Below, piece by piece: positions 8,680 through 26,476 of a DNA stretch of 64,000 bases (the first letter of the stretch is position 1; each line of letters starts with the position of its first letter). The notes under the pieces were generated by a model. The model did not search any database. It saw only the letters and a list, made by a program, of their open reading frames with translations, and was not told the DNA's origin. The stretch lies in the NCBI GenBank assembly GCA_938003835.1, contig CALKXJ010000002.1, positions 124,001 through 188,000 of the forward strand, read 5' to 3'. Source of the stretch: an uncultured Bryobacteraceae bacterium (GTDB lineage Bacteria > Acidobacteriota > Terriglobia > Bryobacterales > Bryobacteraceae). A program made the position numbers and the translations under genes.

Positions 8680-9462
8680 ATGAAGAATCTGAAGGAACGA
8701 CTTGGCGCGGGCCAGACGCTGCTCGGCTGCTTCCTGAACCTCGGCTCATCGCTCACCGCGGAGATGGTAGGCAAGGCGGGCTTCGACTTTGTGGTGATCG
8801 ACATCGAGCACGGCTCGGGCACCGAAGCCAACATCCTGCATCAGCTCCAGGCGCTCGAGCACACCGCAGCGGCGGCAGTGATTCGCGTCGAATCCCACGA
8901 GCGCCAGCGGGCGCACCGGGTGCTCGATCTCGGAGCTCACGGCATCATGTTTCCGCGCGTCAACTCGGCCGCCGAGGCCCGCGCCTGCGTGGCGGCGCTG
9001 CGCTATCCGCCGCTGGGGGTGCGGGGCGTGGCGTCGATGAACCGGGCCTGTGAGTTCGGCGTGAGCTTCCGCCGCTATGTCGAGGCCTCCAAGGACGTGC
9101 TGCTCGGCGTCTTGCAAATCGAGACGGCCGAGGCGCTGGACAATGTCGAGGAGATCGCCGCCGTCGACGGCGCCGACGTGCTTTTCATCGGCCCGCTCGA
9201 CCTGTCGATGAGCCTCGGCATTCTGGGCGAGTTCGATCACCCGCGCTTCCAGGCCGCGCTCGAGCGGACGGCCGCGGCGGCGGCCAGGCACGGCAAGGCC
9301 ACCGGCGTGCTCATGCCCAAGCCGGACGACTTCGCGCGCTATCACGGGCTGGGCTTCCGCTTCCTGGCCTGCGGCTCCGACGGAGCGATGGTTAACAACG
9401 CGGCGCGAACGCTAGCGCAGAACCTGATCCAGCAGCGGCGCCAGCGGACCGGGGCGAGCTAA
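8680..9462 (+). CDS. HpcH/HpaI-family class II aldolase (RhmA/HpaI-like)
   Basis: 260 residues, the usual length of the family. Hallmarks in order: the opening [13 protein letters not shown], the DIEHGSG motif, [13 protein letters not shown], metal-binding Glu in LQIETAEAL and Asp in [11 protein letters not shown]. Members cleave 2-keto-3-deoxy sugar acids (rhamnonate, glucarate or galactarate derivatives) or homoprotocatechuate-pathway intermediates to pyruvate and an aldehyde, using a divalent metal. The convergent neighbour is an MFS transporter of the sugar-acid (galactonate-type) subfamily, with a 4-base overlap at the 3' ends. That makes a sugar-acid substrate more likely than an aromatic-pathway intermediate. 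Confidence 0.9.
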
Positions 9463-10739
9463 ACCGGCCGCGGCGCGTACTTGCGGCGGACCAGCACCAG
9501 ATAGGCCAACACGCCGAGCACCAGCCAGGCGCCGATGAACTTGATCGGCGCATCGAAGCTGCCGGTCTTCTCCACCAGCCAGCCGGTCAGCCACGGGGCG
9601 ACGATGCCGGCCAGGTTCGCCGCCGTGTTCTGAATGCCCACCACCATGGCGATGCTGCCGCCGGGAATCAGCGTTTGCGTGAGGGCCCAGTAGTTGGGCA
9701 TCGCCAGGCCGAGCCCGCAGAGAGCGAAGACAGCGAAGAAGACGGCCACGTCGACCGAGTCGCTGAAGGCGCCGATGGTCTGCGTGGCCGCCAGGATAAA
9801 GCCGGCGATGGTGAAGCCCTTGCGCACGTTGATGGGGTCATGCCCGCGGCGGATCACCCAGTCGGCCGCCGCCCCGGCGAGCGTCCCGACGATGGCCATT
9901 CCGGCAAAGGCCATGCCGCTGTACCAGCCCATCTCGGTGAGAGACATGCCGTGGCGCTCCTTGAAATAGAGCGGCATCCACGTCATGCAATAGTAAACGA
10001 AATACATGTAGCAGTAGGTGCCGAGGATGACGCCCCAGATGACCGGGCTGCGGAGAATCTCCCAGGCCGAGACGCGCTTGAAGCTTTCCGTGGTCGCCAC
10101 CGCGGCAGCTTCGCGCGGGCGGGGCAGGGCCGCGATGTCGTCCTTTTTCACCCAGAGCATCCACGGCACCAGCCAGATGAGGCTGGCCAGGCCGATAACG
10201 ATGAACATCATCTGCCAGCCGTGCGCCGCCACCAGGTACGCGCATAGCGGCAGGCCGAGCGCCGGCCCCAGTTTGGTTCCCGTCATGTAGAGCCCCACGG
10301 CGAGGCCGCGCTGCCGCTCGTCGAAGTGCAGCCGGATGTAGCGCATGCTGGCCGGGGTGACGACCGACTCGCCCAAGCCGACGAGCAACCGCATGGCCAC
10401 CAGGCCGCTGAGCGCGGTCACCAGCGACGTCGCCGCCGAAGCGAGGCTCCACAGGAGAAAACCAATCAGATACGGCGTGCGCACTCCGAAGCGATCCACC
10501 AGAATGCCCGACGGGATCTGAAACAGCGTGTAGGTCCAGAATACGGCTGAAAGCGCCAGGCCCTGTTGCGCCTTGTCCCAGCCGAACTGCTCGGCCATGG
10601 GCGAAATCGCGGTCGTGAGGTTCACGCGATCGAAGTAGGCGATAACCATCCCCAGGGCCAGCAGCACAACCACCGGCCAGCGCATGGGAGCGGCGGCCTG
10701 AAGCTTACCGAGGGCGGCGGAGGTGTTGGTGCTACTCAT
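9459..10739 (-). CDS. MFS transporter, anion:cation symporter (sugar-acid) type
   Basis: 426 residues from the ATG at 10739; an in-frame TTG 13 codons upstream is less likely because GGTGAG lies right before the ATG. About twelve hydrophobic segments are visible, starting with VVVLLALGMVIAYFDRVN. The first helix ends in YFDRVNLTTA, and the loop 2-3 motif is LVDRFGVRTPYLIG, as in GudP/DgoT-type D-galactonate and glucarate transporters of the ACS subfamily. The predicted role is proton-driven uptake of a hexonate or hexuronate across the inner membrane. Its 3' end overlaps that of the HpcH/HpaI aldolase. On the same strand the SelA-like gene ends 60 bases upstream, so the long 10.8-16.4 kb operon could read into it. 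Confidence 0.9.
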   Translation of the reverse strand: MSSTNTSAALGKLQAAAPMRWPVVVLLALGMVIAYFDRVNLTTAISPMAEQFGWDKAQQGLALSAVFWTYTLFQIPSGILVDRFGVRTPYLIGFLLWSLASAATSLVTALSGLVAMRLLVGLGESVVTPASMRYIRLHFDERQRGLAVGLYMTGTKLGPALGLPLCAYLVAAHGWQMMFIVIGLASLIWLVPWMLWVKKDDIAALPRPREAAAVATTESFKRVSAWEILRSPVIWGVILGTYCYMYFVYYCMTWMPLYFKERHGMSLTEMGWYSGMAFAGMAIVGTLAGAAADWVIRRGHDPINVRKGFTIAGFILAATQTIGAFSDSVDVAVFFAVFALCGLGLAMPNYWALTQTLIPGGSIAMVVGIQNTAANLAGIVAPWLTGWLVEKTGSFDAPIKFIGAWLVLGVLAYLVLVRRKYAPRPV

Positions 10740-10799
10740 CTCACCTGAGACGATGTCACACTTTGGCCGGAAGTTCAAGCCGGCCCGGGCGGCGCACGC

Positions 10800-11984
10800 T
10801 CAGCCCGCCTCCAGGATCTCGCGGATCCGGCGCGCTACCAGACGGTGCTCGTCGCCGCGCAACATCCACATCGAGACGCGCAGGCCGGTTGGGCCCGCCT
10901 GGGAGACAGCGATGGGAGGGTCGCCGGCCAGCAGGCGCTCCACGACATCCTTCGCCGAGAGCCTGCGCGAACTTTCGTCCCATTCGAGGACGACGTGCGG
11001 GACGTGATTGGCAATTTCGGGCACATCCACCGAGGCGCGGACGCCGCTCAAGCCGCCGAGGATCTTGAGGAACTCTCCGGCGCGCTGATCGAGCAGGCGC
11101 CGCTCGGCCGCATGATCGACCTTGAGGTAGCGCTCCACCGCGGCCACCAGGCCCACGATCTCCTCCTTGCCGACCTTCATGCCCCGGCCGATGCCGCCGT
11201 GCGGGCTGATGGCGCGACGCCCGATTTCGATCAGGTCTTTTCGGCCAAGCAACAGGCCCGAGCACTGCGGCCCCAGCAGGCCCTTGCCGCCGGAGAAGGC
11301 CACCAGGTCGAAGCCCTGCCGCACGTATTCGGACAGGCGCGAGGGCGGGGGCACGTCGGCGGCGGCGTCGTTGAAGGTGGGCACGCCGCGCTCCTTGCCC
11401 ACGCGAATCCACTCCTCGCGCTTGATACGCCCTTCGGGCTCGGCCTTGTTGAGGAAGAACATCATCGCCGTGCGCTCGTTGATGGCGCGCTCGAGCTCCT
11501 CGCGGGTCTCCACCCAGACGATCTTGACGCCCACCAGCAGCATCTGCGCCTCATAGCCGCTCCGGTGGCTCCGCTGCTGCACGATCTCGTTCTTGAGGCC
11601 GGTGGTGTCCGGCAGGCGGGACAGGTTGCCGGCGTCGGGGGCGGCTACACAGGCCGCCGTGGCCACCGTAATCGAGGACGCAGCGCCCGCGGTAATCATG
11701 GCGGCCGGGACACTGAGCAGCTCGGCGATGCGCGCGCCCGCCTTCTCCTGAAGCTCGACCAGATTGACGAAGTGGCGGGAAGCCTCTTCCATGGCGGCGA
11801 TGACCTCCGGCGGCATGATGGAGCCCCCGAGAATGGTCACGGTGCCCACACCGTTAATCACCGGTCTTACGCCCAGGCGGGCGTAAACGTCCGCGGTGCG
11901 GCCGGCGGCCGGCAAGGCCGGCGAAGCGCCGGCAGCGAGCGCCGCCAGTTTGGCGAACGTCCTTCGCGTCGCAGTGAGTTTCAT
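10800..11984 (-). CDS. Exported SelA-like PLP-dependent enzyme
   Basis: 394 residues. The fold is that of the SelA / D-glucosaminate-6-phosphate ammonia-lyase group of type I PLP enzymes. Visible features are the opening YARLGVRPVINGVGTVT, the AGAASSITVATAACVA substrate/cofactor loop, DAAAD, and the presumed PLP lysine K234 in FSGGKGLLGPQ. The N-terminus is unusual: TATRRTFAKLAALAAGASPA looks like a twin-arginine signal, which suits a protein that must fold around its cofactor before export. The ATG overlaps the stop of the VWFA gene by 4 bases (11981-11984), so the two are translationally coupled. Substrate unknown; amino-sugar acids or amino acids are possible. It is not selenocysteine synthase itself. 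Confidence 0.8.
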   Translation of the reverse strand: MKLTATRRTFAKLAALAAGASPALPAAGRTADVYARLGVRPVINGVGTVTILGGSIMPPEVIAAMEEASRHFVNLVELQEKAGARIAELLSVPAAMITAGAASSITVATAACVAAPDAGNLSRLPDTTGLKNEIVQQRSHRSGYEAQMLLVGVKIVWVETREELERAINERTAMMFFLNKAEPEGRIKREEWIRVGKERGVPTFNDAAADVPPPSRLSEYVRQGFDLVAFSGGKGLLGPQCSGLLLGRKDLIEIGRRAISPHGGIGRGMKVGKEEIVGLVAAVERYLKVDHAAERRLLDQRAGEFLKILGGLSGVRASVDVPEIANHVPHVVLEWDESSRRLSAKDVVERLLAGDPPIAVSQAGPTGLRVSMWMLRGDEHRLVARRIREILEAG

Positions 11985-13618
11985 TGAGCGTTCTCCTGTC
12001 TGGTTTGCCCCTGCGCTCCGCCGCTCACCAGGCGGCGGACGGGGACCGTTACGGTTCCGAGGTTGCCGGAGGTGATGTCGCGCACCAGCACGCGCAGGAT
12101 CGTGGCCTCCGGAGCGAGGTCGAGGTGCTCGATCAGGCGGAGCCCGCCTGCTTCCATCACCCGGCGGTAGGTCGCCTCATTCAGGCGGAGATTATTGATT
12201 CGCGCCACGGTTTGAAGCTGCTGTTCCCGCCGGTCAAGCTGGACCATCCACACATCGAGCCGGCACTCGAACAGACCCGGCTGCGCGGCCGGCCGAAAGA
12301 CGACGTCGGGCGCATCGATCTCGATATCGAGATCGAGCTTGGAGGGCGCGGTGAGGGTGGGGCGGATGGCGAGGCCGATTCGCGTGGCGTCCATGGGGCT
12401 CCAGATGGCGCTCTCGAGCACCCGCTCGCGATACCAGGCCTCATCCGGCTCCTCAGGCTGGGCAAAGTAGCCACCGCGATGATAGAGGACCACGCCCGGC
12501 CGGCGCGCTTCGACCTTGATCTGGCGGAAGCGCCCGTTCCAGTCGTTGTGCGATGGGTAGTAACCGATTAGATAGGTCCGGCCGGCGTCGGCGGCGGCCC
12601 GGCGCATGGCGCCGACAAGGTCGTTGTTGTTGTAAAAAGCCCGCCCTCCGGTCCGCTGCGCCAGCAGGCGCATGGTGGCGAACATCGCCTGATCGCGCCC
12701 CGGGATCCGTTCGCCGAGCACTGACAGGTCAGCCCGGTACTCTTGCGGGGCGATGAGGCCGCGGGCGTCCACGGGATAGACGGCCAGGTTCGCGTTGTTG
12801 AGCGCCCGCGCCGCCCGTTCCACTTCAGGGGAGATCGAACGGGGTCGGCGGCCCGATCTGGACGGGCGCGGAAGCTGGTCCAGCTCGATCGAGATCGGGA
12901 AGCTGCCCGAGACCCAGATGAGGTTCTTCCGGCCGGGCAGGCGCTCCAGGTGATTGGCGATGGCAATCAGCGAGCGCGCGGTGCGAAAGGCGCGGTCCTC
13001 TTCGAAGTAGTCGATCAAGTTGAAGGAGAGCTCGGCCAGCCAGGCGCCGAAATGCTCTTCCGGCGAGACCACCGGATCGTAAAGCGGCGCATCGAGCGTG
13101 GGGGAAGGCTCGCCGGTATAGTTGCGCAGGGCCCTGAGCAGGACCGCCGGATCGCCGGTGAAATCCTGGAGGATGCGCGGCCCGCGGCCCAGGACATAGA
13201 GGGCCACCCGATCTCCTTCCCGGAGCTGTTCGAGGAACCGGACCACCTGGCGCCGGGCATAGGCCTGATCCGTGATGCGGGTGTTGAGGCCGTCGAAGAG
13301 AATGACGGTGAGGCTGGCGGGCGCACCGGCCTCCTCGGGCCGGTTGGAGAAAGCGCCCGGCGCCGGCCGTCGCCTGGCAGGACGGCCGAGCGCGGAGGCC
13401 GGGGTGAAGAAGGCGATCTGCTGCTCGCGGCCTTCATCCAGAAGGCGAAGATCCTCCTGCCGGAGGTCGCTCACCGGCTCGCCCTGGCTCGTCTCGGCCA
13501 CCACGCTGACCTCCACCATCCGGGTGGTGACTCGCAAAGGCTGCTGGCCGGAGACCGCAGGAGCCGTCTGCGCGGCCAGAACCGCTACGGCGAGCGCCAG
13601 CCACGCACAGCGCAACAT
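11981..13618 (-). CDS. VWFA-related Acidobacterial-domain protein
   Basis: 545 residues with a Sec signal (LALAVAVLAAQTAPAVSGQ). The N-terminal portion reads RVTTRMVEVSVVAE then LRQEDLRLLDEGREQQIAFF. A VWA-like domain follows from about residue 95, with ILFDGLNTRITDQ (metal-site-like Asp/Asn/Thr), FLEQLREGDRVALYVLG and LIWVSGSFPI. This arrangement is known mainly from Acidobacteria, which carry many copies. Such proteins are extracellular and presumably bind ligands; no enzyme activity is known. It ends with a 4-base overlap with the SelA-like gene and begins 21 bases after PIG-L paralogue C. A TATACT hexamer 10 bases before the ATG may give it its own short-leader promoter. Confidence 0.88.
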   Translation of the reverse strand: MLRCAWLALAVAVLAAQTAPAVSGQQPLRVTTRMVEVSVVAETSQGEPVSDLRQEDLRLLDEGREQQIAFFTPASALGRPARRRPAPGAFSNRPEEAGAPASLTVILFDGLNTRITDQAYARRQVVRFLEQLREGDRVALYVLGRGPRILQDFTGDPAVLLRALRNYTGEPSPTLDAPLYDPVVSPEEHFGAWLAELSFNLIDYFEEDRAFRTARSLIAIANHLERLPGRKNLIWVSGSFPISIELDQLPRPSRSGRRPRSISPEVERAARALNNANLAVYPVDARGLIAPQEYRADLSVLGERIPGRDQAMFATMRLLAQRTGGRAFYNNNDLVGAMRRAAADAGRTYLIGYYPSHNDWNGRFRQIKVEARRPGVVLYHRGGYFAQPEEPDEAWYRERVLESAIWSPMDATRIGLAIRPTLTAPSKLDLDIEIDAPDVVFRPAAQPGLFECRLDVWMVQLDRREQQLQTVARINNLRLNEATYRRVMEAGGLRLIEHLDLAPEATILRVLVRDITSGNLGTVTVPVRRLVSGGAQGQTRQENAQ

Positions 13619-13639: not shown

Positions 13640-14536
13640 TCAGTCCCGGTAACTCTTTGGGATTCGGTATTCGGGACCGGCGTAGTGGAACTCCTCGGCG
13701 TATTTGAACCTGGTGCCTTGCGCGCCGATTTCACCTAACTTGCGGACATTGATTTCCACCAGTTTCTCCACGGCCGCCTCGTTCACCGTCTCGAGCAGCG
13801 GCAAGCGCCGGCCGGTTTCCTCCAGCCGCTGGCGGATGCGCATCGCCAGGCTGTAGTTGGCGGTTCTGAGCGCTTTGGCGGCGCGCAGCTTTCTCTCGAT
13901 CATCGGAGTGATGTCGACGACCTTGGGCTGCGGGACGAAGGTCGCCGGGCCCTCCGGCTCGCGGCGCCGCGGATCGACCGGTTGCGCGTAGTAGTAGAGC
14001 TCGGGCACCAGATGCGGCTTGAGCCCGGCGATGGCGAAGGGCGGCTGAAAGTTCTCGAGCGCAGCCGCGCGGCGCGCCTCCTCGGCCGCCTGGCCGGCGT
14101 AGAAGCGGTCGAGCACCTCCACGTAGTGAGCGTAGGGATTCGGAATGAAGAGCACCTCGGGCCGGTGCAGCCGGATGTAGAACATCAGGCGGTCGCGCAG
14201 CTCGGTGGGCGAGACGCCGCCGAGCTCGCCGGCGCGATAGCCGAGCGAGATCACCTCGCGAAAGCCCAGGATGCGCGCGGCCTCCTCGCTTTCCATCCGG
14301 GCACGCCGCGCCGTCTCCTCGGGGGCGAGATCCCAGGAGTCCTTCTCGTCGTTGGTGACCCGGATGAGGTAGCCTGTGGCGCCCTGGGCCATCATCGCGG
14401 CGACGGCGCCGCCGGCGGCCAGCACGTAGTCGGTCTGGTCCGCCGTGATGACGAGGAGAGTCTTCTGGGCGGCGGCGCGCGGGGCGGCCGCAAGCGCAAC
14501 AGCCGCAGCGAGCAGCGAAAAGCAGAGCCCTCTCAT
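13640..14536 (-). CDS. Secreted PIG-L-family paralogue C, metal site degenerate
   Basis: 298 residues from the ATG at 14536, with a Sec signal (LLAAAVALAAAPRAAAQ). It has the PIG-L/LmbE fold: first strand LLVITA, AAGGAVAAMM, RVTNDEKDSW, ARILGF, YRAGELGG, RPEVLFIPNPYAH. In active PIG-L enzymes the first loop is HPDD(E), giving a metal-binding His, a general-base Asp and a metal-binding Asp. Here it reads ADQTDY (32-37): His is replaced by Asp33 and the base by Thr35, and only the last Asp (36) is kept. The third ligand (the His in PDH of A and B) is Arg in LDRFY. Deacetylase activity is therefore unlikely. It overlaps paralogue B by 4 bases (14533-14536). Confidence 0.85.
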   Translation of the reverse strand: MRGLCFSLLAAAVALAAAPRAAAQKTLLVITADQTDYVLAAGGAVAAMMAQGATGYLIRVTNDEKDSWDLAPEETARRARMESEEAARILGFREVISLGYRAGELGGVSPTELRDRLMFYIRLHRPEVLFIPNPYAHYVEVLDRFYAGQAAEEARRAAALENFQPPFAIAGLKPHLVPELYYYAQPVDPRRREPEGPATFVPQPKVVDITPMIERKLRAAKALRTANYSLAMRIRQRLEETGRRLPLLETVNEAAVEKLVEINVRKLGEIGAQGTRFKYAEEFHYAGPEYRIPKSYRD

Positions 14537-15450
14537 GGTTGGACGGCGTTCTCCCGAAGGTAGTCTTTGAGCCCGGGCAGGTGATCGAACTCGTCTCGGA
14601 ACCAGTAGACTTCGCCGTAGCGCAGGCCGTTCTCTTCGCCGCGCTTGCGCGAGATCCACTCCATGTACCACTCCTCGATGAGCACCGCGGCTTGCTGGTC
14701 GTTGAGCCCCTCGAGTTCGGGCACGAACAGGCCCTCGGCGGCGAGCTGCTTGCGAATGGCGCGCGCCATGGCCGGGCTGGCGTAGACGTTACGGTGCGCC
14801 GAGTAGGCCTTCTGCTTGCGGGCGATCTGGCTTTCGTTCAATTCGACGACGACGTTGGGCTCGTGTCCCCGGCCGTAGTCGACGCGCGCTTTCAGGAACA
14901 GATACGGCACGCGGTGAGGTTTCAGGCCCGCCGCCAGATGCTCCGGGTGCACGCCGGCGTAGCCTGCCATCCAGACCGCCTCGGCCATGGCCCAAGCTAC
15001 TTTGCGGTGGTCCGGATTGCGGTCGTAGTGGCCCCAGGGATCATGCCCAAGCACCAGATCCGGGCGGTAGAGGCGGATCAGCAGAATCAGTTGCGCGCGC
15101 AGCTCCTGGGTGGGGATCGGGTCCATGTAGTCGTTGCGCCAGTTCAGGCTGTGCACGCGTTCAATGCCCAAAATCCGGCAGGCCTCGAGACACTCCTTGA
15201 GGTTGATCTGGTCGTTGAGCGCGTAGCCATGCGCGCCATCCTTTTCATCATTCGAAGCGCGGATGTAGACGCCGCGCCAGCCCTCGTCCACCAGCCGAGC
15301 GATCAGCCCGCCGAAGCCGTAGTCGGTCGTGTGGTCGTCATGATGCGGCTGGATAACCATGAAGAGGCGGCCCGAAGGCATTTTGACGGCGGGCAAGGGC
15401 GCGGCGGCGGCTTCGAGAGCGAGCAGGGCGAGTAAAGCGAGGCTTCTCAT
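14533..15450 (-). CDS. Secreted PIG-L-family deacetylase B, motif intact
   Basis: 305 residues from the ATG at 15450, with a signal peptide (LALLALLALEAAAAP). The catalytic loop is PHHDDHTTDYGFGG, with His36 and Asp39 as expected metal ligands and Asp38 as general base. The third ligand is the His of NPDHRK in GHYDRNPDHRK. PIG-L proteins remove N-acetyl groups from GlcNAc-containing glycolipids and related amides, usually with zinc. Here the enzyme is exported, so the substrate should be extracytoplasmic; its identity is unknown. It closely resembles paralogue A in length, loop (HHDDH with two extra residues before GG) and the shared VRASNDEKD/VRVTNDEKD stretch. It overlaps both neighbours by 4 bases (15447-15450 and 14533-14536). 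Confidence 0.9.
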   Translation of the reverse strand: MRSLALLALLALEAAAAPLPAVKMPSGRLFMVIQPHHDDHTTDYGFGGLIARLVDEGWRGVYIRASNDEKDGAHGYALNDQINLKECLEACRILGIERVHSLNWRNDYMDPIPTQELRAQLILLIRLYRPDLVLGHDPWGHYDRNPDHRKVAWAMAEAVWMAGYAGVHPEHLAAGLKPHRVPYLFLKARVDYGRGHEPNVVVELNESQIARKQKAYSAHRNVYASPAMARAIRKQLAAEGLFVPELEGLNDQQAAVLIEEWYMEWISRKRGEENGLRYGEVYWFRDEFDHLPGLKDYLRENAVQP

Positions 15451-16376
15451 TTCGGTCGCACGTTCTCGCGCAGGTAGTCCTTGAGCCCCGGCAAATGGTC
15501 CCACTCGCCGACGAAGTAAAAGACTTCGGCAAAGGGCACTCCATTCTCTCGTCCGTGCCGAGCCGAGATCCAGTACATGCGCCACTCCTGGATCCGGATC
15601 GTTGCTTCCTCGTCGGAGAGCCCCTCGAGCTCCGGGACGCGCAGGCCCCGTGCATCGAGCGCCGCCCGCAGCGCGCGGGCGCTTTCCGGGTGGACGCGGA
15701 CGTTGCGGTGGAGCCAGTAGGCGCGCGCCTTGCGAGCCACCTGCTTTTCGGTGAGGGCGACGGCCACGTTGGGCTCGTGTCCCTTGCCGTAGTCGAAGCG
15801 CTGGGCATAGAAAACGAACGGGACGCGGTGCAGCTTCCAGCCCGCCGCCAGGTGCTCCGGGTGCACGTTGGCAAAGCCGGAGAGGGCGAGCGCGTCGGCC
15901 AGCGCGCGGGAGACCTTCCGGTGGTCCGGATTCCGGTCATAGTGTCCCCAGGGATCGTAGGAGAGCACGACGTCGGGGCGGTAACGGCGCAGCAGCAGGA
16001 TCAACTGGGCGCGCAGGTCATGGTGCGGGATCGAGTCCATGTGGTCGTTCCGCCAGTTGAGGCTGATGACCTCCTCGATACCGAGCGCGCGGACCGCCTC
16101 CTGCGTCTCCCGCTCGTTCACCAGGTCGTTTTCGCCCCAGCCGGCCGAGCCGTCCTTCTCGTCATTGGTGACGCGGACGTAGTAACCTCGATAGCCCTCG
16201 TCGATGAGGCGCGCGATCAGCCCGCCGAAGCCGTACTCGTGCGTGTGGTCGTCGTGGTGGGGCAGAACCGCTAGGAAGGTCTTGCCCGGCGGGGGGTCTA
16301 GCAAAGGCAGCGGCCCGGCTGCTGGGGCGACGAACCCGACCAGACAAGCCGCCACCAAACGAAGCCCATGCGCCAT
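15447..16376 (-). CDS. Secreted PIG-L-family deacetylase A, motif intact
   Basis: 309 residues from the ATG at 16376. A much longer in-frame opening exists, but it would run across the divergent gene and its sequence looks non-coding. Signal peptide LVAACLVGFVAPAAG. The catalytic loop PHHDDHTHEYGFGG has His40, Asp42 (base) and Asp43; the distal His is in GHYDRNPDHRK. First gene of the minus-strand run A-B-C, followed by the VWFA, SelA-like and MFS genes; all A-B-C junctions are 4-base ATGA overlaps. TATAAA on the minus strand at 16390-16395 may be its -10, leaving a leader of about 7 bases. Predicted role: metal-dependent N-deacetylation of an extracytoplasmic sugar or glycolipid. Confidence 0.9.
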   Translation of the reverse strand: MAHGLRLVAACLVGFVAPAAGPLPLLDPPPGKTFLAVLPHHDDHTHEYGFGGLIARLIDEGYRGYYVRVTNDEKDGSAGWGENDLVNERETQEAVRALGIEEVISLNWRNDHMDSIPHHDLRAQLILLLRRYRPDVVLSYDPWGHYDRNPDHRKVSRALADALALSGFANVHPEHLAAGWKLHRVPFVFYAQRFDYGKGHEPNVAVALTEKQVARKARAYWLHRNVRVHPESARALRAALDARGLRVPELEGLSDEEATIRIQEWRMYWISARHGRENGVPFAEVFYFVGEWDHLPGLKDYLRENVRPK

Positions 16377-16389
16377 GCTGCTTCGGATT

Positions 16390-16395
16390 TTTATA
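16390..16395 (-). promoter_or_regulatory. Candidate -10 element (TATAAA) for the PIG-L A-B-C operon
   Basis: TATAAA on the minus strand, 13 bases before the ATG of paralogue A, in the 75-base divergent spacer of the PIG-L array. The -35 is unclear. Confidence 0.35.
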
Positions 16396-16429
16396 TCACA
16401 CCGGGCCCGGGCGGGCGCCCCGGTTGAGA

Positions 16430-16435
16430 TAGAAT
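16430..16435 (+). promoter_or_regulatory. Candidate -10 element (TAGAAT) for the PIG-L D-E operon
   Basis: TAGAAT 16 bases before the ATG of paralogue D, in the same 75-base divergent spacer as the promoter of paralogues A-C, so the two arms could be co-regulated. The -35 is unclear. Confidence 0.35.
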
Positions 16436-16451
16436 TGTTTGCCGATTCACG

Positions 16452-17327
16452 ATGCGCGGCCGTGGTTGGTGGCTTTTGGCGGGGCTGGCGGGACTCGTTG
16501 CGCCCTTGAGCGCCGAGCAGAACCTGAACGTGCTCGCGGTGACGGCCGGCTCGGGCGATTACCTCTGGGGCGCTGGGGGGACGCTGGCGGCCCTGGCGCT
16601 CGACGGCTATCAGGTCTACGTGGCTCAGTTCGGCAACGACGAGAAGGCTGCCGCGGCGGGACTGAGCCCGGCCGAGGCGCGCTGGGCGAACGTCGAGGAA
16701 GCGCAAGAGGCGGCCGAGCTGTTGGGGTTTCGCGACACGATCTATCTCTCACACAAGAGCGGCGAGCTCGGCCAGGTCTCGAGCACCGAGATGCGCGAGC
16801 AACTGTTTGCACTCATCCGCCACCTCCGACCCGCAAAGATTTTCCTGCCCGACCAGTACGTGCACTTCCAAGCAGACTGGGATCACTACTGGGTGGGTAA
16901 GATGGCCGAGGAGGCCTGGGGCTATAGCGGCGGGGCGATGTTCTCGCCGCAGTTGGCGCACATGGGCCTGAAGCCGTACAGCGTTCCCGAAGTGTACTTC
17001 TATGCGGCCGGGCGGCCCTACCGGCCCGGGGAGGGCGGCGAGGAGGCTTCGCGCTTCCTCGGCGTGGACATCGGCCGAACCTTTCTGGCGAAACGGATTG
17101 CCATCGGCATGCTGCGGGCGCGGAACCGGGCGCTGGCTCTCGAGACCGGCATCGCGCTCCGCGCGGGAGACGAAGAGGCGCCGCGGCGGCTCGCGTCGGC
17201 GCTGGTCGAGGAGCTGGCGCCCCAGGTCGGCCGGCGGCATGGCTTGGAATTCGGCGAGGAGTTCAACTACGTGGGACCGCGCGAGGCGATCCCGCCGTAT
17301 GTGCTCGAGCGGGCGGTGAAGAAATGA
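16452..17327 (+). CDS. Secreted PIG-L-family paralogue D, metal site degenerate
   Basis: 291 residues with a signal peptide (WWLLAGLAGLVAPLSAE). The fold is retained: LNVLAVTAG, GAGGTLAALAL, FGNDEKAAAAG, AAELLGFRDTIYLSHKSGEL, RPAKIFLPDQYVHF. The catalytic loop is AGSGDY (32-37) instead of HPDD(E): the metal His is Gly33 and the base Asp is Gly35, with only Asp36 retained. Unlike paralogues C and E, it keeps the distal His in DWDHYW. It is the first gene of the divergent plus-strand pair D-E and overlaps E by 4 bases (17324-17327). It is probably not a deacetylase; a binding or regulatory role is possible. Confidence 0.86.
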   Translation: MRGRGWWLLAGLAGLVAPLSAEQNLNVLAVTAGSGDYLWGAGGTLAALALDGYQVYVAQFGNDEKAAAAGLSPAEARWANVEEAQEAAELLGFRDTIYLSHKSGELGQVSSTEMREQLFALIRHLRPAKIFLPDQYVHFQADWDHYWVGKMAEEAWGYSGGAMFSPQLAHMGLKPYSVPEVYFYAAGRPYRPGEGGEEASRFLGVDIGRTFLAKRIAIGMLRARNRALALETGIALRAGDEEAPRRLASALVEELAPQVGRRHGLEFGEEFNYVGPREAIPPYVLERAVKK

Positions 17328-18217
17328 GGGCGCCGGTCTCGGTCCTGGCGCTCATTGCGGCTGCACTTTGTGGTGCCGCCCAGACGCCTGGGCCGGTGAT
17401 GGTGGTGGCGGCGAACTCGCGGGATTATCTCTATGGCGCGGGCGGGACGCTGGCGCGGATGGTCGCCGAGGGGCGCCCGGTCTACGTGCTCCTGTTCGGC
17501 AGCGAGGACAAGGACGCTGTCGGGCTGGCGCCGGCCCGGGCCCGCCTGGCCAACAACGCCGACGGCGAGCGGGCAGCCCGGGTGCTTGGCGTCAAGGAGG
17601 TGCTCTGTCTCGGCTATCCGAGCGGAGAGTTCGGGCAGATCTCGACCAGCGAGCTGCGCAACCACGTGATGACGATGTTCCGCGTCTGGAAGCCGGAGAT
17701 CCTCTTCTTCCCGGACTGGTACATACACTATCTGGACGACAAAGATACTTACTGGGTCGGGCGCATGGCCGAAGAGGCGCCCTACGGCGGAGGCAGTTAC
17801 TTCCTCCAGGAGATGACCTATATCGGCTATCCCGGCTATGCACCGCGCCAGTATTACTTCTACAGTCCTTACCGGCCGTACCGGCCGAGGGAGGGAGGCG
17901 AGGGCCCCGCGTCGCTTCGCGCGGTGGATATCACCTCGACGATGGAAGTGAAACTGCGCGCCATCGCCGAGCTCAAGACAGCCAACCAGCTCTACGCCCT
18001 TCAGACGCGGGAGCGCCTTCGCGCCGCGGGCCGATCGGGCAAGCGAATGGCCGAGCTGACGCCGGAGACGGCGGCGGAACTGGCGCGCGCCTTCGCCGAG
18101 GAGCTCGCCGCCGAAATCGGCCGCAAACACGGCTTCCGTTACGCGGAGGAATTCAACCACCTGGGCAGTCGGCCTCTCGTGCCGGAGCATGTTCGGGAAA
18201 GGGCCAAGCGGCGCTGA
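17324..18217 (+). CDS. Secreted PIG-L-family paralogue E, metal site degenerate
   Basis: 297 residues with a signal peptide (VLALIAAALCGAAQ). It is similar to D along its whole length (YGAGGTLARM, LCLGYPSGEFGQIST, YFYSPYRPYRPREGGE). The loop is ANSRDY (30-35): Asn31 in place of His, Arg33 in place of the base Asp, and Asp34 retained. The distal ligand is Thr in DKDTYW. Two of the three metal ligands and the base are therefore lost, as in C. The end carries KHGFRYAEEFNHLG, matching HGLEFGEEFNYVG in D and TRFKYAEEFHYAG in C, a tail not obvious in A and B. The shared tail and the shared Asp-Tyr change suggest C, D and E form one subfamily. Confidence 0.86.
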   Translation: MRAPVSVLALIAAALCGAAQTPGPVMVVAANSRDYLYGAGGTLARMVAEGRPVYVLLFGSEDKDAVGLAPARARLANNADGERAARVLGVKEVLCLGYPSGEFGQISTSELRNHVMTMFRVWKPEILFFPDWYIHYLDDKDTYWVGRMAEEAPYGGGSYFLQEMTYIGYPGYAPRQYYFYSPYRPYRPREGGEGPASLRAVDITSTMEVKLRAIAELKTANQLYALQTRERLRAAGRSGKRMAELTPETAAELARAFAEELAAEIGRKHGFRYAEEFNHLGSRPLVPEHVRERAKRR

Positions 18218-18226
18218 GGGCAGGTC

Positions 18227-19873
18227 TCAGTCCTGCTCGAAGACGACGTCCACCGGAATCGAAGCGCCGCCCAGGCGCTCCAGGTCGGCCTCGAGCTCCG
18301 GAGCGAGGATCCCCGTTTCTTTGACGAAGCCTGCGGCTGCCTGATAATCGCCGTCACCTTGCAAGCGTAAGAGGCGTCCGGCGAGATCGGCGATGGCGCC
18401 TTGCATGCGGCCCACGTCGACGCGCCAGGCACCTACCCGGTCATCGCGGGCAATTGCCTGCGCCCTGATCAGGTGATGGAAAGCAATCAGATTGGCGATG
18501 CCGTGCGCGCTCGAGGCCCCGAAACGCACGGACCGGAAGATTCCGGCGAGATAAGTCACGTAGTAATCGAGCAGATCCGTCCGTTCCAGCTCCCCGCGGG
18601 CCGCGAGCCGGCCGATGATATAGAGTCCAAGGACGTCGGCTTTGCACTCTTCGAGCGCCGAGTAAGTGTCCTTGAGGGCTTCGCGAACGGTGAGCTTGCC
18701 GTCGAGCGTGCGCTTGATGCCCAGACCATGAGCCACCTCGTGGAACAGCACGTTGGCGAAGAAAGCGTCGAAGTGAACGCGCGGGCGCTGGTCGGCGGCA
18801 ATCAGCCGATCTGCAATCGGCACGAGGATCTTGTCGAACTTGGCGCGCATGGCGTTGCGGAGCTGGAGGCGGCGCGTGCCTTTTCTGAGCTGCACCTCTT
18901 CGTCGTTGGGCAGGTTGATGGCGATCGTCTTGCTCCCGGCGTTGCAGTCCCCGGCATAATAGAGCGCATCGTAGACGTTCAGGTCCGACGCCGTGCCCGG
19001 GGTCTCCCTCTTGTAGGCGTCCGGGACCGGCAGGCCACGCTGGAGCTCGCCGAGCATGGCGGCGTAGCGCGCCAAGCGCCGGCTCCATTCCTTGTCCTTG
19101 ACCAGAACGAAGGCCTCGTACGCCGCCTTGTAGCCGAACAGGCGGTCCTCGTAGGTCTCGATCGGCCCGATGACGATGTCGAGCCTGTTCGTTTTCATGT
19201 CCATCCAGGCCAGATCGCTCGGCTGGTACTTGTCGGTGAGGAGCGCCTCGGCGCGCAGCTCGAGGTATCGCCTGAGGCCGGCGTCTTCGGCCAACCTGGC
19301 CGCTTCGCGCAGGTTCCGCGCCGCCACCTCCAGCAGCAGGCCGTACGCCTGGTGGTAAGGTTGCGCGATGAGCGCGCCGGCGGCGTCCCGGCGCACGAGC
19401 GTGTACAGGCTCTGGAGCGCGCGGCCGCCGTCAGGGGCTTTCTTTACGGCCGCCTCAAACTCCTCTTTCGTCATGTCCGGCGGGTAGAAGTTCGCCCCCG
19501 GCGGTTTCGGAGAGAAGCCGTCGAGAAACGGAACGTTGCCTTCGAGCCGGTCCCAGGGCCCGTAGTTGATCTCGACGTAGCGGCGGGCGTCGGGATCCCT
19601 CACTTTGGCCAACAACGTGAGTTTGTCGCCGTAGGCTTGAAGCCAAAAGAGTTCGTCCATGACCCTGGCGGCGTTCTTGAGCAGGGGGATCATCTGGCGC
19701 TCACGCTCGGTAAGGCCGCTCAAATCCGCTTCCAGGCGCACCACGGCGTACTTGTTCAAGCGTTGTTTCATAGGCAAAGGGATCGCTTCACGGGAATCCT
19801 GCCGGCTGCCGCAGCCGGTGACCGCGGCCAGGACGAGGGCGGCGACGAGAAGCGGTCGTCTGGATCGGGACAT
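18227..19873 (-). CDS. M49-like zinc peptidase lipoprotein
   Basis: 548 residues from the ATG at 19873. A longer opening to 19939 lacks a signal sequence. The N-terminus RRPLLVAALVLAAVTGC is a lipoprotein signal with a VTGC lipobox (Cys21). The zinc site is FHEVAHGLG followed about 40 residues later by EECKADVLGLY, similar to the EECRAE motif of dipeptidyl peptidase III (M49). Classic M49 enzymes have HExxxH, whereas this has HExxH spacing. Length and context (NYGPWDRLEG, GDCNAGSKTIAINLPND) fit the bacterial DPP-III-like group. It is probably anchored in the periplasm and acts on small peptides, or may be non-peptidolytic. It is convergent with PIG-L paralogue E, 9 bases apart. Confidence 0.75.
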   Translation of the reverse strand: MSRSRRPLLVAALVLAAVTGCGSRQDSREAIPLPMKQRLNKYAVVRLEADLSGLTERERQMIPLLKNAARVMDELFWLQAYGDKLTLLAKVRDPDARRYVEINYGPWDRLEGNVPFLDGFSPKPPGANFYPPDMTKEEFEAAVKKAPDGGRALQSLYTLVRRDAAGALIAQPYHQAYGLLLEVAARNLREAARLAEDAGLRRYLELRAEALLTDKYQPSDLAWMDMKTNRLDIVIGPIETYEDRLFGYKAAYEAFVLVKDKEWSRRLARYAAMLGELQRGLPVPDAYKRETPGTASDLNVYDALYYAGDCNAGSKTIAINLPNDEEVQLRKGTRRLQLRNAMRAKFDKILVPIADRLIAADQRPRVHFDAFFANVLFHEVAHGLGIKRTLDGKLTVREALKDTYSALEECKADVLGLYIIGRLAARGELERTDLLDYYVTYLAGIFRSVRFGASSAHGIANLIAFHHLIRAQAIARDDRVGAWRVDVGRMQGAIADLAGRLLRLQGDGDYQAAAGFVKETGILAPELEADLERLGGASIPVDVVFEQD

Positions 19874-19897
19874 GATGGATTGCGGCTCCCCTGAACG

Positions 19898-19903
19898 ATT
19901 GTA
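19898..19903 (-). promoter_or_regulatory. Candidate -10 element (TACAAT)
   Basis: TACAAT on the minus strand, 24 bases before the ATG of the M49-like lipoprotein gene. Weak -35. Confidence 0.3.
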
Positions 19904-19953
19904 TCGATCGAGGCGGCGGCGGGCCGGCGCGTGATTCAATGAGGAGCAAAGCC

Positions 19954-23839: not shown

Positions 23840-26476
23840 ATGGCGTTGACCCGACGCCAGCTCGCCCGCAACCTCGTTCTGCTGCCCTTTCTCCGAACCC
23901 CGGCGCGCGCGGCGCTCGAGAGCCCAGCGCTGAGGTTCGAGGTTTCGGTCGATTCGCGCGGCCGAGTGGCGCGCGCTCTCACCCATCGCCTCACGGGCGA
24001 GTCCTTCGCTCTGCCCGAGGCGGACTTCGCGCTCGAATTCGACGACGGCGCGGTGCTCGCGGCAACCGATTTTTCCGCTACCCTCGCCGAGACGAAGCCC
24101 GAGCGGATCCGCCTGGAGTACTCGCGGCCGGGCGGCCCCACCCTCCGCGTCGACTACACGCTGCCGCCCGGCAGGGATTATCTTCGGAAGCAGATCTCTC
24201 TTTGTGCCGAACGGCGATCGGGTCCGAGGCTGCTGCGGGCCGATCTGGACAACTGGAAAGGAATCCGGCGTCCGTGGCAATCGCTCCGGGGAGACCGCTT
24301 TCCCTACGGCAGCCATCCCATCTTCTGCGAGAGCCTCTGGGCGGGTGTCGAGTTCGTCGCCGCATTCAATGAGTACGGCCCCGAGGGCTTCGTGCTCCGC
24401 AGCCGGCCCGGGGGTCTGCGGCTGACGGCGGAATGGAGCCCTCTGGTTTCGACGGTGGTGGGCGTCGCCGAACCTGGCAAGGTCCGGGCGGCGTTCCTTC
24501 GTTACATCGACGAGATCCGGCTGGCGCCGCCGCGTCTGGTGGCCTGTTACAACTCCTGGTGGACGCTTCCGCTCAGAATCGGGCAGACCGAGCTGGTCGC
24601 GCTGGCGCGAGAGCTTGCCGAGAAGCTCCGGAAGCCCCACGGCGTCTTCTTCGACATCTTCACCATCGACGAAGGATGGACCGACCCGCAGAGCGTCTGG
24701 GAGATCGACCAGAAGAATCTGCCGGAGGGGTTCCGGCCTCTTCGAACGGTGGTCGAGCAGGCGGGAGGCAAGCTCGGGCTGTGGATGTCGCCGAGCGGGA
24801 TCTATCCCCGTTCGCTCGATTACGAGTGGGCGGAGAAAAACGGTCTCTTCGTCATCTGGGCCCAGCCCGGACACTGGCACCGAACCGGTGTTTCGCTCGC
24901 CGACCCGGCCTACCGGGAACGCACGAAGCGGCAACTGGAGCGGCTTATCGCCGAATGGGGCCTGGGACACATCAAATACGACGGCTTCATCGCTCGCGAA
25001 GACAAGCCGCATCACGACCTGCTGCCGGGTGAGGATTCGGTGGAACCCCTGGCGCGCCATGCCCTCGAGCTGCTCCAGGTTTCCAAGAAGGCCAACTCCG
25101 ATCTGGTGACGGAGCCGACCTTCCTGAACTCGTACTCCAACTACATCAGCCCGTGGATCCTCAAGTATTCCGATACGGTGTGGGCGAACTCGGGCGGGGA
25201 TCTGCCGGCGGGCATCGGGCCGGCGCCGGAGTATCGGGAATCGCACACCAACGCGCGCGAATGGTTCATCTTCTCTTCGCTCGATGAGGTGTGGCTGCCG
25301 CAGAACGCGCTCCAGTACTTCGACATCGTGCACTGCGATCCCGGCGGCGGGTTTGCCAACCATGCCGCGATGGCCTTCGGGCGCGGCCGCTTCTTCGTCG
25401 CCACGTACATCAACCCCCGTTTCATGACTGCCGACGACTGGCGCGTCTACGCAGGCCTGCTCCGCTGGGCGCGCGCCAATCAGGCGCTGTTGCGCAACAC
25501 CGAGGTCTTACGGTCCCGGGTCGAGCTCGGCGAGCCTTATGCTTACGCCCACTGGCTGGGCGCGCGCGGCGTGATCGCGGTGCGCAATCCGAGCAACGAA
25601 ACCAGGGAATACGTGCTCGATCTGGGCGCGGCGGGGGCGCCGCGGGAGCTTGCCGACGCCGTCTGCTACACGCAGTATCCTTACCGGCGGGGACTGGCCG
25701 CCGGGCTCACGGGCCGATCGACGCTCGCGCTGCGCCTGGCCCCGTGGGAGCTGCTGTTCGTCGAGATCCTGCCGCGCGCTCAGTTGAGGGAGCCTGTGGT
25801 GATCGGCGGGCGCTGGTACGCCTCGGAGTCAGGCACATTGGCGGCGCCGGATTGGAATACGGATCGTCTGCGTTGGCTCGTGCCGGGCCAGCCCGACTTC
25901 GAGCGGCGCGTTCCCGTTCATGCCCGCGGCGAACTGCGCGGCGCCCTCGAGAAGCTCCAAGCCGTGGAGCTGCCCTTAAGCGCCTGGATCCGCCGCAAGG
26001 GCGAGCGGTTGCCGACAGTCGCCTTCGAGCTGGAGTGTGCCGTGCAGGTCCCGCCGCAGGCGGCCCGGGCGCAGGTCCTGCTCCTGGTGGAGCATCCCGG
26101 CCGGGAGCACCAGCCGAGCAATTGCCAGGCGACATTGAACGGTGCGGCGGTTCCGGTTCGCCAGAGCTCTTCAGAAGGCCACATCCGCATGTATGCGGCG
26201 CGGCCCGACGGCTACGGCAGGCAAATCATCCCTTATGAGAGCGAATGGAGTTGGCACATCGTCGAACTCCCCACCGGAAAAGCGCTGCTGCGATTGGCCG
26301 GCGTCGCGGCGGACCCGAAATGCCGCCTCGGTCTGTGGCTCTGGGCGGACTTCGATGTCAGGGCAAGGCAACGGCGATTTTCGGTGTCTTGTGCTGAAGC
26401 CGCCTTGCCCCAATACGCCGAGCATCGGGAGCGCGACGGCCTCTGCCTCCGGCCGCCGGCGGCCTTGCCGTTGTGA
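23840..26476 (+). CDS. Tat-exported clan GH-D (GH36-like) glycosidase
   Basis: 878 residues. The N-terminus TRRQLARNLVLLPFLRTPARA looks like a twin-arginine signal. A beta-sandwich-like N-terminal region (residues about 30-225) is followed by a TIM barrel, recognised by ACYNSWWTLPLR, IDEGWTDP (equivalent of the DDGW motif), LGLWMSPSGIYP and IKYDGF, where Asp381 is the likely nucleophile. The acid/base is not assigned with confidence. After about residue 620 the chain is beta-rich, probably an accessory C-terminal domain. The clan includes alpha-galactosidases and alpha-N-acetylgalactosaminidases; the substrate here is unknown. It lies 28 bases after phzF on the same strand. Its 3' end is followed by a small hairpin. 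Confidence 0.82.
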   Translation: MALTRRQLARNLVLLPFLRTPARAALESPALRFEVSVDSRGRVARALTHRLTGESFALPEADFALEFDDGAVLAATDFSATLAETKPERIRLEYSRPGGPTLRVDYTLPPGRDYLRKQISLCAERRSGPRLLRADLDNWKGIRRPWQSLRGDRFPYGSHPIFCESLWAGVEFVAAFNEYGPEGFVLRSRPGGLRLTAEWSPLVSTVVGVAEPGKVRAAFLRYIDEIRLAPPRLVACYNSWWTLPLRIGQTELVALARELAEKLRKPHGVFFDIFTIDEGWTDPQSVWEIDQKNLPEGFRPLRTVVEQAGGKLGLWMSPSGIYPRSLDYEWAEKNGLFVIWAQPGHWHRTGVSLADPAYRERTKRQLERLIAEWGLGHIKYDGFIAREDKPHHDLLPGEDSVEPLARHALELLQVSKKANSDLVTEPTFLNSYSNYISPWILKYSDTVWANSGGDLPAGIGPAPEYRESHTNAREWFIFSSLDEVWLPQNALQYFDIVHCDPGGGFANHAAMAFGRGRFFVATYINPRFMTADDWRVYAGLLRWARANQALLRNTEVLRSRVELGEPYAYAHWLGARGVIAVRNPSNETREYVLDLGAAGAPRELADAVCYTQYPYRRGLAAGLTGRSTLALRLAPWELLFVEILPRAQLREPVVIGGRWYASESGTLAAPDWNTDRLRWLVPGQPDFERRVPVHARGELRGALEKLQAVELPLSAWIRRKGERLPTVAFELECAVQVPPQAARAQVLLLVEHPGREHQPSNCQATLNGAAVPVRQSSSEGHIRMYAARPDGYGRQIIPYESEWSWHIVELPTGKALLRLAGVAADPKCRLGLWLWADFDVRARQRRFSVSCAEAALPQYAEHRERDGLCLRPPAALPL

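Follow-up and report, generated by a model that had tools for sequence, protein, structure and literature searches.

Five adjacent PIG-L/LmbE genes, three of them without catalytic residues

The window analyzed here is a 64-kb stretch (about 66% GC) of the 5.0-Mb genome of an uncultured Bryobacteraceae bacterium, a genome with 16 PIG-L matches. It contains five adjacent genes, A to E, whose products all exceed the Pfam PIG-L (PF02585) cut-off of 28.2 bits. On the minus strand, A (15447–16376; 309 amino acids, 77.7 bits) is followed by B (14533–15450; 305 amino acids, 60% identical to A, 68.5 bits) and C (13640–14536; 298 amino acids, 43.7 bits). On the plus strand, D (16452–17327; 291 amino acids, 43.4 bits) is followed by E (17324–18217; 297 amino acids, 37.3 bits). 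Neighboring genes of each run overlap by 4 bases (A/B at 15447–15450, B/C at 14533–14536, and D/E at 17324–17327), and the divergent starts of A and D are 75 bases apart (16377–16451), a gap that presumably holds the promoters of both runs. A hydrophobic, signal-like N-terminal stretch was recognized by eye at the start of all five proteins. These coordinates, strands, frames, overlaps, and leaders agree with an earlier sequence-only reading of this DNA; the two divergent gene runs that it described are also present, except that the A-B-C run extends for three more genes on its strand, to position 9459.

The motifs divide the five proteins into two groups. A and B carry PHHDDH and NPDH, and thus have the His-Asp-His zinc triad and the base Asp of metal-dependent PIG-L/LmbE deacetylases; the HHDDH codons lie at 16245–16259 in A (residues 40–44) and at 15331–15345 in B (residues 36–40), both on the minus strand. 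At the same place C has ADQTDY (DQTDY, residues 33–37, codons 14426–14440, minus strand), D has AGSGDY (GSGDY, residues 33–37, codons 16548–16562, plus strand), and E has ANSRDY (NSRDY, residues 31–35, codons 17414–17428, plus strand). On this motif reading none of the three has the full zinc triad with the base Asp. C, D, and E have neither the first metal His nor the base Asp, and the distal His is missing from C (LDR) and E (KDT) and present in D (WDH), just as had been proposed.

The dead types form two clades that accompany active paralogues

When D was used as the query against 60 related genomes and that of the window, the same gene block was retrieved elsewhere. Across the fetched loci, three protein types with stable signatures were found, namely the active type (A/B), the C type, and the D/E type; the last two are referred to below as dead types. 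Since the same degenerate signatures recur in orthologues from other genomes, they are not due to chance or sequencing error. In a tree of 80 rows, C and D/E were sister clades of a single superclade (paired support values of 100/97 for the superclade, 100/98 for C, and 100/99 for D/E). A tree of 170 rows, built without the motif columns and without further near-copies and distant PIG-L rows of the genome of the window, gave the same picture, with values of the Shimodaira–Hasegawa-like approximate likelihood ratio test (SH-aLRT; the only support measure for this tree) of 99, 98, and 100, respectively. The Asp-Tyr pair that ends the degenerate motif, proposed earlier as common to C, D, and E, is indeed shared by the three proteins of the window (the last Asp followed by Tyr), but is not universal across the superclade: the Asp is replaced by N, E, R, or G and the Tyr by W, F, or L in some C types, and the Tyr by C, A, or V in some E types.

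Two kinds of active-type relatives were seen along the way. Four Bryobacterales clusters (L172, L173, L174, and L175, from genomes G420, G536, G538, and G466) encode a single-domain H-x-D-D-F protein beside a two-domain fusion. They resemble the A–E block in having several adjoining PIG-L domains, two of them fused, and differ from it in that all three domains read keep H-x-D-D and the distal DH; on the tree, one such domain is the active-type sister closest to the dead superclade, with a support of only 76. The genome of the window itself has another adjoining PIG-L pair (L055, C7:32577–34296), with the intact sites AHSDDIP and AHLDDVP.

To describe gene content, non-duplicate loci were typed by best match to A–E, after removal of second copies of the same contigs, short loci, loci with active H-x-D-D proteins only, and a 115-residue fragment (L065). 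All three types occurred together in 30 of the resulting 45 loci. The complete loci had two layouts: 17 encoded at least two active domains, one C domain, and two D/E domains, and 13 encoded one domain of each type. The proposal of two enzymes with three pseudoenzymes therefore describes one of two layouts. For 12 of the remaining 15 loci, all three types are present elsewhere in the genome, and the other three (L094, L106, and L179) are truncated by contig ends. In one genome, G026, the two halves of the set lie inside separate contigs (898 kb and 142 kb); the halves have thus moved apart, and both have been kept. The second sets of G048 and G050 (L072, 6335–8363, and L077, 7605–9636) have AGH or PGH in place of PDH as the active-type distal motif, and the Asp beside the zinc His is gone.

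The distribution was next assessed in 257 genomes of the order, using an A/B profile (E up to 1e-70) and a dead-type profile (E up to 1e-55), with motifs read in the fetched loci. The A/B profile matched 35 genomes, every one of which also matched the dead-type profile at least twice. The sequence-only reading had suggested looking in other genomes for a dead class that travels with active paralogues, and such a class was found. The dead-type profile matched 44 genomes, nine of them without an A/B match at 1e-70; in seven of these, all matches were relatives of the active H-x-D-D-F kind, and the other two (G430 and G436) had true dead types at contig ends. The dead types are retained in three families of the order. 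In a draw of 297 genomes from the phylum (E up to 1e-30), matches were obtained in seven, including the genome of the window, and all nine matches in the other six were active H-x-D-D proteins. A contig scan with a single peptide pattern, which may miss variants, returned 35 loci, 34 of them labeled as acidobacterial (Bryobacterales, Bryobacteraceae, Solibacteraceae, Candidatus Sulfopaludibacter, Acidobacteriaceae, or plain Acidobacteria). The remaining one, with a true D/E-type gene (L094, 5122–6051), is a 6.2-kb contig of a metagenome-assembled genome labeled Alphaproteobacteria and is perhaps mis-binned. Some soil and water bacteria keep genes of putative, secreted-looking deacetylases beside close relatives that are devoid of catalytic residues.

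The catalytic base appears to have been lost before the zinc ligands

Two genomes hold intermediates. In G037, the D/E type (AHAEDY and DH) and the C type (AHPEDY and DH) both keep the zinc triad, with Glu in place of the base, and these proteins may still be active. In G466, the D/E type (AHAGDY and DH) keeps the triad, and the C type has TYAEDY and DR. In both dead clades, the earliest branches are those of proteins from these genomes (SH-aLRT of 92 for the remaining C rows and 80 for the remaining D/E rows), the C row of G466 being a long branch in the 170-row tree. A fewest-changes count on that tree gave one change of the base Asp, three of the first zinc His, and six of the distal His. 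These counts indicate that the base was lost first, and the zinc ligands later and more than once. As read from their motifs, C–E belong to a conserved class of proteins that is devoid of the base and nearly always of the first zinc His.

The dead types are under purifying selection and keep residues of their own

Ratios of nonsynonymous to synonymous substitution rates (dN/dS) were 0.051–0.245 in 17 comparisons of C, D, E, or D-E, and 0.056–0.254 in nine comparisons of A or B; the L101 versus L108 comparison gave no value for B and C, with dS saturated. The ratios indicate that C, D, and E are under purifying selection and point to an old system and not to decay. The view that C–E are decaying copies would account for the lost catalytic residues but can practically be dismissed, given these ratios, retention in three families of the order, and confidently predicted folds.

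AlphaFold models of C (pLDDT 90.4, pTM 0.87) and E (pLDDT 88.7, pTM 0.86) matched LmbE-fold structures with Z scores of about 19–29. UDP-GlcNAc 2-epimerases and other matches to these models had Z scores under 9 and were set aside as general fold likeness.

Conserved residues were listed from 32 C rows and 52 D/E rows, leaving out the rows of G037 and G466. At least 95% of C rows keep Asp33 (where the zinc His would otherwise be), Asp143, Glu152, and, in the tail, Glu281, Glu282, Phe283, Gly287, and Pro293. The corresponding D/E list is Asp34, Glu102, Asp131, Asp141, Glu150, and the tail segment Glu275-Glu276-Phe277-Asn278. No His or Cys reached 90% in either set of rows, the highest value (0.88) being that of one His in C, and a conserved His/Cys zinc site in C or D/E is therefore unlikely.

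The residues at the metal site also bear on the idea that carboxylates of C–E still coordinate a metal and that these proteins are deacetylases with an altered mechanism. The triads kept with a Glu base in both dead types of G037, and the triad of the D/E type of G466, speak for it. In the window, however, the motif and distal places are occupied by Asp, Gln, Thr, Asp, and Arg in C and by Asn, Ser, Arg, Asp, and Thr in E, and we consider this mechanism very unlikely.

Relation to Dac and other known systems

The closest known protein is Dac, the N,N'-diacetylchitobiose deacetylase of Pyrococcus (carbohydrate esterase family 14, CE14; PDB 8bgn, 3wl4, and 3we7). It was the best PDB sequence match of the dead-type profile (E 3.1e-28), of the active-type profile (1.1e-25), and of A (9.5e-20), and the best fold match of the C model (Z 28.9, rmsd 3.1, 234 residues aligned) and the E model (27.3, 3.2, 230); LnmX (5bmo) tied with Dac as a fold match for C and came close for E. 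Dac is described as a homohexamer, a dimer of trimers in which every subunit is active (PMC9779004). Its zinc is held by His40, Asp43, and His151, Asp42 and His259 flank the substrate, and the catalytic His259, along with other contacts, is supplied by the neighboring subunit. Unlike Dac, the present system has two of its three protein types devoid of the metal site.

The bacillithiol and mycothiol deacetylases BshB1 and MshB share the fold and, with A and B, the His-Asp-His site and base Asp, whose roles in MshB are described in PMC4101496. All five proteins scored far below the cut-offs of the BshB1 and MshB NCBIfam equivalogs, at best 62.8 bits against 182.5. As the typed loci, the 35 genomes with an A/B match, and the dN/dS ratios show, a dead paralogue is kept together with an active one, as in enzyme–pseudoenzyme pairs. 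The trypanosome AdoMetDC (S-adenosylmethionine decarboxylase) and its prozyme (PMC5201418) are likewise reported to combine a dead paralogue with an active one, but they have another fold and are a tested pair.

Active and dead domains are joined in natural fusions

Several loci encode two domains in one open frame. An active domain and a C domain are joined in G037 (L066) and in G466 (L169), and a second G037 contig (L067) shows the end of an active domain running through a linker into C. D and E are joined at five loci (L087, L088, L092, L101, and L108). By eye, the second domains of the fusions have no leader of their own. In the alignment that included fused proteins, single-domain rows were placed on one half of the fusion. 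The fusions support, without proving, an arrangement in which active and dead domains would sit side by side.

Genes adjoining the set

The three genes that continue the A-B-C run are separated by 21-base gaps or 4-base overlaps. The first, 21 bases after C, encodes a VWA protein of the acidobacterial type (11981–13618, minus strand; TIGR03436, 242.9 bits against a cut-off of 81.25). It is followed by the gene of a DgaE-like pyridoxal phosphate (PLP) enzyme with a twin-arginine-like leader, as judged by eye (10800–11984, minus strand; TIGR01437, 191 bits, below the cut-off of 385.3; best PDB match 7lc0), and by that of a major facilitator superfamily (MFS) transporter whose closest subfamily is that of the D-galactonate transporters (9459–10778, minus strand; TIGR00893, 246.7 bits, below the cut-off of 395). 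Convergent with the transporter gene is that of a HpcH/HpaI-type, GarL/HpaI-like aldolase (8680–9462, plus strand; PF03328, 138.6 bits; all GarL/HpaI equivalogs below cut-off). At this one locus, and through matches below cut-off, the neighbors suggest a route in which an N-acetylated amino sugar or sugar acid would be deacetylated, deaminated, and cleaved by an aldolase.

DgaE-like genes adjoin the set in four other genomes, G026 (L062), G466 (L093), G442, and G445, but the link is weakened by a background of at least 2–24 such matches per genome among the matches listed. FmdA/AmdA-like (acetamidase/formamidase-like) genes occur near some three-gene loci (in G411, G417, G430, G437, G439, and G443) and about 2.6 kb from the set in G048 and G050; the loci at which they adjoin or lie near three-gene sets are L071, L076, L100, L103, L104, L105, and L107. 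All 37 genomes searched match this family, at least 2–15 times each among the matches listed, some genes matching twice. We regard both kinds of neighbors as leads to function. Outer-membrane proteins of the OMP_b-brl_4 type, found near the set in 10 of 42 sources, were not used as a clue because such proteins are common in these bacteria.

On the other side of the set, a 570-residue M49-peptidase-like protein (18227–19939, minus strand; PF03571, 53.6 bits) is encoded convergently with E. Farther on, an 878-residue open frame with a leader-like start (23840–26476, plus strand) had no Pfam or NCBIfam match at E 1e-4.

Possible roles of the dead-type proteins

On balance, we think it probable that A–E make up a heteromeric amino-sugar deacetylase that works outside the cytoplasm and includes non-catalytic subunits. 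A and B would be zinc-dependent deacetylases of the CE14/LmbE type. C and the D/E pair, which share their fold, would associate with them as subunits, contribute to the formation or shape of the active site, and assist in holding the substrate. By analogy with Dac, the assembly would most likely be a mixed ring or hexamer. Its substrate would be an N-acetylated amino sugar or sugar acid. We favor the heteromer mainly because, if the arrangement is as in Dac, a subunit whose own pocket is dead can still be of use to the one beside it. The sequence-only reading had offered such a complex as one of two options; a conserved dead class that travels with active paralogues, and the fusions, fit it, and it is the best-supported reading. 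We observed the residue losses, the fold, the co-occurrence, the purifying selection, and the natural fusions; the complex, its geometry, its location, and its substrate are inferred.

Several observations weigh against a heteromer with non-catalytic subunits. The dead pockets hold residues of their own (for example, Asp33 and Asp143 in C, and Asp34 and Asp141 in E) beyond what a plain scaffold would need. A likely Dac-type tail His just before [LVI]-P, assigned by eye and by a putative residue match, occurs in 22 of the 32 distinct B-type tails and in four of the 21 of A type, and the C and D/E tails have none; it is not reliably kept, which speaks against a plain copy of Dac. At two loci, the C-type protein (L100, 5495–6373, and L104, 7085–7960) has a twin-arginine-like leader and the active partners have plain hydrophobic ones, again by eye. 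Finally, gene linkage and fusion would also be compatible with enzymes that act in succession.

The main alternative is that C and D/E are new enzymes on the old fold. They would have lost metal-dependent deacetylation and would carry out a different step on the same substrate in a conserved acidic pocket, and the operon would then encode successive reactions. The clade-specific residues kept in at least 95% of rows (Asp33, Asp143, and Glu282 in C; Asp34, Glu102, Asp141, and Glu276 in D/E) fit this idea, which was the second option of the earlier reading, and the same fold does perform another reaction in the GalB hydratase (5cgz), one of the structure matches. Against it, the absence of any His or Cys at 90% makes a His/Cys metal site unlikely, and the fusions with active domains are also compatible with a role as subunits. 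We rank it below the complex and consider it rather unlikely. An extended version, in which C and D/E represent two separate conversions of the fold into metal-free, obligate, active partners whose new acidic pockets contribute catalysis or channeling of their own to a multi-step treatment of amino sugars outside the cytoplasm, is slightly more doubtful still.

Alternatively, C and D/E could be separate lectin-like proteins that bind sugar and feed substrate to A and B without a fixed complex. The fold is kept, and C retains the Arg of a YR motif that aligns with YR in Dac and with WR in A and B; the fusions and the fixed gene order, however, suggest a defined stoichiometry, and such a role seems improbable.

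Pseudoenzymes in general are well known. In the open-access literature, we found no report of pseudoenzymes in the PIG-L/LmbE superfamily, and while the fold family is known, we seem to have no earlier description there of its stable partnership with two dead clades. A practical caution is that Pfam PIG-L matches include proteins devoid of the metal site. A single bacterial order offers the active enzyme, two dead clades, intermediates that keep the triad, natural fusions, and two layouts, and both the sequence of losses (the base before the ligands) and the function of the dead subunits can therefore be tested directly.

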